Source: Terriglobia bacterium
GTDB taxonomy: Bacteria; Acidobacteriota; Terriglobia; Acidiferrales; UBA7541
Length of the DNA: 47,207 nucleotides
Reading direction: 5' to 3'
NCBI GenBank assembly: GCA_020072805.1
Contig: JAIQGC010000046.1
Location: 1-47,207, forward strand
In this document: positions 16,246 through 17,755 of the stretch, in pieces
Position numbering within the stretch: the first letter of the stretch is position 1
How the letters are laid out: each line of letters starts with the position of its first letter
The notes under the pieces: model-generated
Told to the model about the DNA's origin: nothing
Seen by the model: only the letters and a program-made list of their open reading frames with translations
Database searches by the model: none
Translations under genes and position numbers: made by a program

Positions 16246-17499
16246 TTATTTTGTGGCGACGGCTGCGGAGAGCCGGCCTTCCAGATAGGCTTCGAAAGCG
16301 TCGAGACGCGGGGGAATGGGCTCGGCGGCGGCGAATTCGCCGGCGAGCGCGTCGGTGGTCTTGAGGCCGTTGCCGGTGATGCAGAGGACGGTAGTGCCAC
16401 CGGGAGCGATGCGGCCCTGGCGGATGAGCTTTTCGGCGACGGCGGTGGTGACGCCGCCGGCGGTTTCGGTGAAGACGCCTTCGAATTCGGCGAGCTTGCG
16501 CATCCCGGCGACGATTTCGGGGTCGGAAACGTCTTCGGCCCACCCGCCGCTCGAGCGCATGACGTTCATGGCGTAAGGGCCGTCGGCGGGATTGCCGATG
16601 GCGAGCGAACGGGCGATGGTGTTGGGTTTTTGCGGCTCGAAGCGGTCGAGTTCGCGCTTGACGGCGGAGGAGATGGGCGAGCAGCCGGTGGCTTGCGCGC
16701 CGAAGAAGCGGACGGGCTTGGGTTCGACCCAGCCGAGTTCGGTGAGTTCGCGGAAGGCTTTGGAGATTTTGGTGATGAGGGAGCCGCCGGCCATGGGAAC
16801 GACGACGTTATCCGGGAGGCGCCAGCCGAGCTGTTCGGCGATTTCGTAGCCGACGGTCTTGGAGCCTTCGGCGTAATAGGGGCGGAGGTTGACGTTGACG
16901 AGGCCCCAGCGGAATTTATCGGCGATCTGCGCGCAGAGACGGTTGACGTGGTCGTAGTTGCCGGCGATGCGGGCGACTTTGGCGCCGTAGATCTGCGTGG
17001 CCATGACCTTGGCGGCTTCGAGATCGGAAGGGATGAAGATCCAGGCGGCCAGGCCGGAACGGATGGCTTGCGCGGCGACGGCGTTGGCGAGATTGCCGGT
17101 GGAGGAGCAGCCGACGGTTTCGAAACCAAAGCGCTTGGCGGCGGTGAGAGCGACGGCGACGACGCGGTCCTTGAAGGAGAGAGAGGGAAAGCAGACGGCG
17201 TCGTTCTTGATATGGAGTTCGCCGAGGCCCCAGGATTTGGCGAGGCGGGGAGCGGAGACGAGGGGAGTGCCGCCGACGGGAAGCGAAGGAATCTGGTCCG
17301 GGGAAACGGGCAGGAGTTCGGCGTAGCGCCAGATGGTATGGGGGCGCGAGGAGAGCTGCTCGCGGCGGAGGGAGGCGCGAATGGCGGCGTAGTCGTAGGT
17401 GATTTCGAGGGGAGAGAAGCAGTCTTCGCAGAAGGAGCGGGGGGCATTGCCCCACAATTTACCGCATTCGCGGCATTTCAGTTCGAACAGTTCGGCCAT
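16246..17499 (-). CDS. thrC: threonine synthase-like PLP enzyme under a SAM-II riboswitch
   Basis: A 417-residue fold-type II PLP enzyme. The N-terminal zinc-ribbon CRECG...CEDC (Cys9, 12, 24, 27) is typical of the ~410-residue threonine synthase class. The PLP-binding Lys is Lys110 in PSLSFKDR, with the phosphate loop around GCSSTGNLANAVAAQA and GGSLITKISKAFRE. Threonine synthase converts O-phosphohomoserine to threonine. The SAM-II riboswitch and the Gly-Gly carrier downstream make a role in homocysteine/methionine formation from the same substrate a serious alternative. Sequence alone does not settle this. It is the first gene of its operon. Confidence 0.85.
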   Translation of the reverse strand: MAELFELKCRECGKLWGNAPRSFCEDCFSPLEITYDYAAIRASLRREQLSSRPHTIWRYAELLPVSPDQIPSLPVGGTPLVSAPRLAKSWGLGELHIKNDAVCFPSLSFKDRVVAVALTAAKRFGFETVGCSSTGNLANAVAAQAIRSGLAAWIFIPSDLEAAKVMATQIYGAKVARIAGNYDHVNRLCAQIADKFRWGLVNVNLRPYYAEGSKTVGYEIAEQLGWRLPDNVVVPMAGGSLITKISKAFRELTELGWVEPKPVRFFGAQATGCSPISSAVKRELDRFEPQKPNTIARSLAIGNPADGPYAMNVMRSSGGWAEDVSDPEIVAGMRKLAEFEGVFTETAGGVTTAVAEKLIRQGRIAPGGTTVLCITGNGLKTTDALAGEFAAAEPIPPRLDAFEAYLEGRLSAAVATK

Positions 17500-17587
17500 C
17501 TAAATACTCCCAAAAAGGCAGCGCGCGCCAGGACGCGAGGATGCCGTGAAGTCACGCGGAATATGATCAAGGGCAGCGCGGAGGGGA

Positions 17588-17623
17588 AATAAAAAAACCT
17601 CCGTGCCAAAGAGTGCTCGGAGG
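17588..17623 (-). terminator. intrinsic terminator of the riboswitch expression platform
   Basis: On the minus strand, CCTCCG-A-GC (17623 side), an 8-nt loop, GC-A-CGGAGG, then seven T followed by ATTT (17597-17588). It lies between the SAM-II aptamer and the threonine-synthase-like start, so it acts as an attenuator rather than the end of a gene. Confidence 0.85.
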
Positions 17624-17651
17624 GTCTCAGAAAATCTTCTAAGAAGCTCAC

Positions 17652-17701
17652 AGCTCTTTAGCAGTTTTTTACGTGGAGCAAGTTGCCCTAAATCGCCACG
17701 T
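17652..17701 (-). ncRNA. SAM-II (SAM_alpha-type) riboswitch aptamer
   Basis: Minus-strand order: P1 ACGTGG, loop CGATTTA, GGC, four nt, TTGC, P1' CCACGT, A-rich AAAAAACT, GCTAAA, GA, GCT. This fits SAM-II. P1 is 6 bp; the conserved loop GATTTA is present; UUGC and GCUAAA allow the G-C/C-G core pairs. The pseudoknot helix GGC/GCU has the usual 4-nt and 2-nt spacings seen in known SAM-II RNAs. It is followed by a terminator and is predicted to lower expression of the threonine-synthase-like and MoaD-like genes when SAM is high. I found this by eye; a covariance-model search was not possible. Confidence 0.88.
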
Positions 17702-17721
17702 GTGGCTCAGCTACGAGCCAC
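17702..17721 (-). promoter_or_regulatory. 7-bp hairpin immediately 5' of the SAM-II aptamer
   Basis: GTGGCTC-GTAGCT-GAGCCAC on the minus strand, ending one base before the aptamer. With the base before it, the first arm reads ACGTGG, identical to the P1 5' strand, so P1' could pair with either copy. Confidence 0.7.
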
Positions 17722-17726
17722 GTACA

Positions 17727-17755
17727 GTTTGTGGGAAACGGCGGTGCGGTGTCAA
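17727..17755 (-). promoter_or_regulatory. promoter of the SAM-II-controlled operon
   Basis: Consensus TTGACA (17755-17750) on the minus strand, 17-bp spacer, then a weak -10 (ACAAAC, 17732-17727, or CAAACT one base further). The predicted RNA start is a few bases before the hairpin and aptamer. Confidence 0.5.

Follow-up and report, generated by a model that had tools for sequence, protein, structure and literature searches.

SAM-II riboswitches (RF00521; Corbino et al., 2005; PMC1273637) have been described together with intrinsic terminators in alpha-proteobacteria (PMC1273637, PMC2258182). For the SAM-II element of S. meliloti metZ, the SAM-bound form is predicted to terminate transcription, whereas for metA of the same organism the prediction of a SAM-II-driven antiterminator did not succeed (PMC9373788). 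In a review, SAM-II is grouped with the riboswitches that occlude the ribosome-binding site directly. A promoter is usually found near SAM-II elements. SAM-II aptamers in tandem have already been reported (44 examples, some with a terminator for each aptamer); the accessible text of that report states neither the gene nor the lineage and does not name Acidobacteria (PMC9481103). No species harboring both SAM-I and SAM-II was reported by Barrick and Breaker (2007).

The closest likeness to the genes regarded here is found in the MetM/MetO system. The synthesis of homocysteine from O-phosphohomoserine by MetM/MetO in Streptomyces was reportedly described by Hasebe et al. in 2024 (AEM). A later account of this work adds that a SAM riboswitch is located upstream of metM in Streptomyces albulus (PMC12172450).

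The window, that is, the whole stretch of 47,207 nucleotides of acidobacterial DNA analyzed here, carries a comparable arrangement on its minus strand. The metM-like gene (16246–17499) encodes a threonine-synthase-family PLP enzyme of 417 amino acids, which is proposed to be an O-phosphohomoserine-dependent homocysteine synthase. Located 21 bases downstream, the metO-like gene (15949–16224, minus strand) encodes a ThiS/MoaD-family sulfur carrier of 91 amino acids, which ends in SIAGG and matches PF02597 with 51 bits. A carrier homologue was present at 28 of 30 loci of the class and, among the matches listed, at 75 of 80 named loci, and the carrier alignments ended in Gly-Gly in 103 of 103 cases. 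The combination of a ThrC-like enzyme beside a sulfur-carrier gene with an upstream SAM riboswitch is shared with MetM/MetO of S. albulus (PMC12172450). In contrast to the Streptomyces system, the locus belongs to the Acidobacteriota and the leader is of the SAM-II or SAM-I type. An actinobacterial homologue from Nonomuraea (52.5% identity) is preceded by a SAM-I riboswitch (68.7 bits) and accompanied by a carrier ending in AVAGG. Judged from family and neighborhood, the gene pair fits MetM/MetO and most likely represents a methionine-pathway enzyme with its own sulfur carrier. A SorA-like sulfite dehydrogenase catalytic subunit is also encoded in the window (12045–13418, plus strand; 446.8 bits, below the 600-bit cut-off).

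A class-wide protein search over 151 genomes yielded at least 99 ortholog places at about 57% identity or more. The leaders of 90 were examined; of the nine orthologs not included, four were fragments and five stood last in the list. Among the 30 loci fetched first, of which 20 leaders were scanned with Rfam, 15 carried SAM-II, 14 carried SAM-I (RF00162, above gathering) at the same position, and one (L024) carried neither. The 60 further orthologs, fetched separately from the training loci of our SAM-I model R2 (with possibly a few duplicates listed under different identifiers), comprised 10 with SAM-II, 49 with SAM-I, and one (L254) with only 16 bases of upstream DNA. Altogether, a SAM riboswitch precedes 88 of the 89 class orthologs whose upstream DNA was examined (SAM-II 25, SAM-I 63), whereas neither class was detected before any of 20 paralogous ThrC genes (34–41% identity). 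The survey of Acidobacteriota for the same leader in front of thrC-like genes, which the sequence-only reading had proposed, thus found SAM-II before 25 of the 89 class orthologs, with nearly all the remainder under SAM-I. The two classes bind the same ligand and occupy the same place before the metM orthologs of different genera, but their folds are unrelated. In a scan of 80 named loci, some of which had also contributed to the 22 SAM-I sequences used to train R2, SAM-II was found at 6 (one cut by a contig end) and SAM-I at 26 (one cut off) among the matches listed; the remaining named loci, including the cyanobacterial ones, had neither among these matches.

The host genome is 99.8% complete and contains a second threonine synthase gene, whose product carries the Thr_synth_N domain (PF14821). 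A P-loop kinase-like gene overlaps the listed start of this second gene (contig C136, about 2896–4871 of the fetched locus). The kinase-like protein matches the homoserine kinase model NF040667 weakly (24 bits, cut-off 197) and is possibly a shikimate-kinase-like homoserine kinase as known from Desulfovibrio (PMC5764234). MetA was not detected in the host genome with a model that matched 8 of 14 control genomes. The MetX search returned a 21.6-bit fragment and no credible candidate, with a model that matched 9 of the 14 controls; since this model exceeded its 500-bit cut-off in none of them, the statement that MetX is missing depends on how small the match is. The genome also encodes four strong Cys/Met-metabolism PLP enzymes, which might be an alternative source of homocysteine. 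A MoeB/ThiF-family adenylyltransferase (345.7 bits, below the cut-off) is encoded near one Cys/Met-metabolism PLP enzyme gene (contig C112, 434–1456 of the fetched locus) and is a candidate activator of the carrier.

Elsewhere in the host genome, a SAM-I riboswitch of 66.1 bits (contig C141, 38356–38471, plus strand; about 1857–1972 of the fetched locus) stands immediately upstream of a gene for a cysteine desulfurase (TIGR03402, 433 bits, under the 531-bit cut-off). The genome therefore combines one SAM-I with one SAM-II, in contrast to the observation of Barrick and Breaker (2007). The cysteine desulfurase could supply sulfur to the carrier. However, because SAM-I was not found in any of the 30 further genomes of the genus (31 in all), the pair of SAM-I and cysteine desulfurase is not a conserved partner of the locus, and contig C141 may be foreign.

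The sequence-only reading had called the 417-amino-acid protein a threonine synthase and had considered its SAM repression unexpected. A genuine threonine synthase under SAM-II control, so that an excess of SAM lowers threonine output, would be in line with the match to TIGR00260 thrC (269 bits, cut-off 167), with the best solved structural relatives, which are threonine synthases, and with the cyanobacterial homologue of Microcystis, which in vitro is reported to work chiefly as a threonine synthase with O-phosphohomoserine as substrate (PMC12172450). For the latter, MetM-like activity is merely hinted at and a SAM riboswitch is lacking (PMC12172450), and this result would count against a MetM function. 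On the other hand, a separate threonine synthase is encoded in the genome, a Gly-Gly carrier accompanies the gene at nearly all loci, the searches for MetA and MetX revealed no homoserine acyltransferase, and SAM riboswitches are confined to the orthologs in the comparison with the paralogous ThrC genes. We therefore consider control of a true threonine synthase very unlikely. The family label stands, but the function does not follow from it: because a Gly-Gly carrier adjoins the gene, another threonine synthase is present, and neither MetA nor a credible MetX was found, the gene product probably does not function as a threonine synthase. The supposed paradox, namely that SAM repression would send O-phosphohomoserine the wrong way, disappears with the resemblance to MetM/MetO, since repression of a homocysteine synthase would spare O-phosphohomoserine for threonine synthesis.

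The pair of a ThrC-like enzyme and a carrier might also produce cysteine or another thiol amino acid, in which case the control by SAM would be indirect. In mycobacteria, CysM/CysO form cysteine from O-phosphoserine, using a fold type II PLP enzyme and a thiocarboxylate-type carrier. The likeness of the two systems in these components and a Prok-JAB protein (97.2 bits) encoded at another site of the genome are compatible with such a role. However, the nearest relatives of the ThrC-like enzyme are threonine synthases and not cysteine synthases, and the genome contains a cystathionine beta-synthase gene at another site. Moreover, SAM control suits methionine, and SAM-II of the same type is found upstream of MetH, MetX, and MetY-like genes. 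A function in cysteine formation is thus regarded as highly improbable, and a homocysteine synthase of the MetM type is preferred.

All SAM-II elements were detected on the minus strand where the sequence-only reading had placed them, followed by a terminator and the open reading frame 16246–17499. The P1 hairpin (17671–17701) is formed by the arms ACGTGG (17696–17701) and CCACGT (17671–17676) and contains the loop motifs GATTTA (17689–17694) and TTGC (17678–17681). The pseudoknot (17652–17687), of the H-type expected for SAM-II, joins the P1 loop to the 3' tail beside GCTAAA by pairing GGC (17685–17687) with GCT (17652–17654), and the aptamer core combines GCTAAA (17657–17662) with the TTGC motif. 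P1, the loop motif, the core, and the pseudoknot are shared with the RF00521 alignment, and P1 with GAUUU and UUGC is also present in the alignment of 15 ortholog leaders. RF00521 (SAM_alpha) was the best Rfam match of the leader (17638–17709, minus strand; 23.2 bits, E-value 0.0054 in 601 bases searched), but the score is lower than the gathering cut-off of 36 bits, which is a curation threshold and not a biological feature. When the whole window was scanned against Rfam, no family reached its gathering cut-off. In the search of the 601 bases, the plus strand gave a snoU61 match (20.6 bits), which was under its cut-off and taken as chance. A sigma-70-like promoter was not detected by the consensus scan.

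The aptamer core was found almost letter-identical, by its motif pattern, in 15 of the 30 class ortholog loci, with variable flanks. Twelve of these 15 leaders represent every genome of the window's genus that was drawn in the class search, and the other three come from genomes of a second genus. From the 15 aptamers, a covariance model (R1) was built, which had matches in 46 of the 396 genomes searched in the phylum. Applied to 98 loci, R1 yielded 106 aptamers, 101 of them distinct. In the 101 distinct aptamers, four of the six P1 pairs displayed two-sided changes and 91.9% of the cells were paired, compared to at most 56.4% in slid versions, in an alignment that was fitted to the model and thus leans towards P1. 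The outermost pair was broken in 43 of the 101. For the 3-bp pseudoknot helix, 245 of 276 cells were paired in 92 distinct aptamers (shuffles ≤232, slid versions ≤111), all three pairs were intact in 64 of the 92, and the types UGC/GCA and GGU/ACC occurred besides GGC/GCU and GGC/GCC. Among 20 sources of MetH-type SAM-II, three exceeded the Rfam cut-off with 42 to 51 bits, whereas none did in another set of 20 loci, mostly of the metM and PLP-enzyme type. Because some MetH-type copies pass the cut-off, the acidobacterial group shades into accepted SAM-II.

The covariance-model check therefore turned out two-sided: the family named in the sequence-only reading is the best match, and the score lies under the threshold by which that reading would have been given up, which is outweighed by the comparison. 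That the aptamer is vestigial or a chance look-alike, with a terminator that only ends an upstream transcript, would agree with the low Rfam score and the lack of a consensus promoter but is scarcely credible, because the core is kept nearly identical in 15 ortholog leaders with variable flanks, P1 and the pseudoknot covary in the wider set, and the genes downstream belong to methionine metabolism. By sequence comparison, the leader is a SAM-II aptamer plus terminator, as the sequence-only reading had claimed, and it is judged to be a real and functionally coherent riboswitch. According to its predicted structure, the aptamer is assigned to an acidobacterial SAM-II subgroup and not to the RF00521 record itself; unlike RF00521, this subgroup scores in large part below the cut-off and often has a terminator loop complementary to the ligand-binding strand, while a terminator after the aptamer and the methionine-gene context are common to both (PMC1273637).

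The best-matching gene downstream of the 106 aptamers was MetM in 39 cases, MetH/homocysteine methyltransferase in 40, a Cys/Met-metabolism PLP enzyme in 20, MetX in one, and none in six. This tally covers 98 loci and counts tandem copies and relatives; 21 of the 39 MetM rows originate from loci picked for MetM, and a few of the genes are about 0.9–1.4 kb away and not immediate neighbors. SAM-II before metM was also found in six other families (f4, f20, f42, f70, f80, and f93). Two SAM-II aptamers in tandem, with metM downstream, were observed at 12 loci, mostly with one terminator per aptamer as judged by eye. Further SAM-II leaders precede an aspartate kinase-like gene (one locus) and sulfite/nitrite reductase-like genes (two loci), all labeled by eye from the translations.

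The intrinsic terminator (17591–17623, minus strand) consists of CCTCCG (17618–17623), a 14-base loop, CGGAGG (17598–17603), and a run of seven T (17591–17597). It was not listed by the consensus scan, because its loop is longer than the limit of eight bases of that tool. CCCTCC and GGAGG are unchanged across the 15 aligned leaders. A putative antiterminator was derived from the minimum-energy fold and a survey of the phylum: its 5' strand TGCTAAAGAG (17654–17663, minus strand) includes the ligand-binding strand, and its 3' strand CTCTTTGGCA (17604–17613, minus strand) lies inside the terminator hairpin loop and pairs with 17654–17663 in the predicted fold. The minimum-energy fold of the window leader has −38.7 kcal/mol, compared to −35.6 kcal/mol with the terminator forced. 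Since UGCUAAAGAG pairs with CUCUUUGGCA in this fold, the strand of the SAM site would also build an antiterminator with the terminator loop.

Of 94 distinct leaders with a terminator found, 54 contained a 6-base complement of GCUAAA inside the hairpin of the terminator (200 shuffles: mean 9.5, maximum 18), and the other 40 lacked it. For four other conserved aptamer strands, complements occurred in 3 to 18 of the 94 leaders. The survey comprised 94 of 103 distinct leaders; nine were left out by the finder, several of them with a terminator visible by eye. All 16 leaders of the window's group had the complement, compared to 38 of 78 elsewhere. Because the strands GCTAAAG and CTTTGGC are invariant within the window's group (15 leaders), covariation was examined phylum-wide. 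The base following CUAAA covaries with its partner (G:C 26, C:G 18, other standard pairs 3, non-standard 9), i.e., it is standard in 47 of 56 leaders, in 31 of 40 without the window's group, and in 15 of 18 when each combination of family and gene, as labeled by hand, was reduced to a single row. None of 2000 shuffles reached 47 or 15. The count was obtained with our own hairpin rule, which kept 56 of the 103 leaders and required TTTRG, so that part of the pairing, although not the covarying base, was a precondition of the count. Two families (f31 and f42) each hold both the G:C and the C:G form.

The antiterminator was absent from the RNAalifold structure of the 15 leaders of the window's group, which displayed P1 and the terminator. 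At equilibrium, the terminator fold was more stable in 12 of these 15 leaders, by 0.1 to 6.6 kcal/mol, and the fold energy favored the antiterminator in three, including that of the window. The antiterminator, whose strands are transcribed first, would therefore have to win kinetically. Together, complementarity and covariation point to the ligand-binding strand as a direct antiterminator coupled to the terminator loop. Predicted SAM-dependent termination is shared with S. meliloti, where the element precedes metZ (PMC9373788), and the metZ leader may contain a pairing similar to that of the window.

In the mechanism we propose, the ligand-free strand UGCUAAAGAG would pair at low SAM with CUCUUUGGCA of the nascent terminator, which would be blocked from closing, so that metM-metO would be transcribed. 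At high SAM, GCUAAA would be locked in the pseudoknot with UUGC and the ligand, and the CCUCCG/CGGAGG terminator would form and end transcription. The thiocarboxylated Gly-Gly terminus of MetO would donate the sulfur, with which MetM would replace the phosphate of O-phosphohomoserine, thereby yielding homocysteine. The aptamer, the pseudoknot, the terminator, the complementarity with its covariation, the gene families, and the conserved carrier are supported by sequence comparison; SAM would have to bind and termination to occur, in vitro and in vivo, and the enzyme to possess the proposed activity. In our assessment, an acidobacterial SAM-II riboswitch very probably terminates transcription prematurely and thereby represses the operon that encodes a MetM-like homocysteine synthase and a MetO-like carrier.

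In a protein tree of 77 rows (midpoint root, quick search; the Nonomuraea homologue and Streptomyces MetM are outside its rows), the distribution of SAM-II needs three changes. The SAM-II clade of the window lies inside a group of 52 rows (SH-aLRT 98), in which the other rows have SAM-I or, in two cases, nothing. A group of 22 rows from the window's family contains both classes (SH-aLRT 87), and because its inner order is unsettled, SAM-II may have been gained once or twice in this family. The gene tree suggests, as the simplest reading, that the sensor was replaced in place at metM orthologs. We hold it for probable that metM-metO kept its SAM control while the sensor was exchanged between SAM-I and SAM-II and, jointly with this, that the ligand-binding strand serves as an antiterminator co-evolving with the terminator loop, a minimal direct coupling.

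SAM-II with terminators, SAM-II in tandem, and MetM/MetO are already known. In the accessible parts of the open-access literature, we found no report of SAM-II before metM or with a threonine synthase, of an exchange between SAM-I and SAM-II at metM, or, among part of the papers on SAM-II and terminators, of a loop-coupled SAM-II antiterminator; the accessible texts on SAM-II in Acidobacteria do not report the metM leader. The split between SAM-II and SAM-I at metM orthologs and the antiterminator formed by GCUAAA and the terminator loop are apparently new.

If the proposed regulation holds true, it would correct the misannotation of a SAM-repressed homocysteine synthase as a threonine synthase in a large part of a soil phylum and would point to a methionine route in bacteria without MetA or MetX. 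The orthologous gene with its two unrelated SAM sensors, exchanged along the tree, would represent a natural experiment in riboswitch evolution, and the leader would be a compact SAM-II attenuator whose coupling could be tested by two compensatory point changes.
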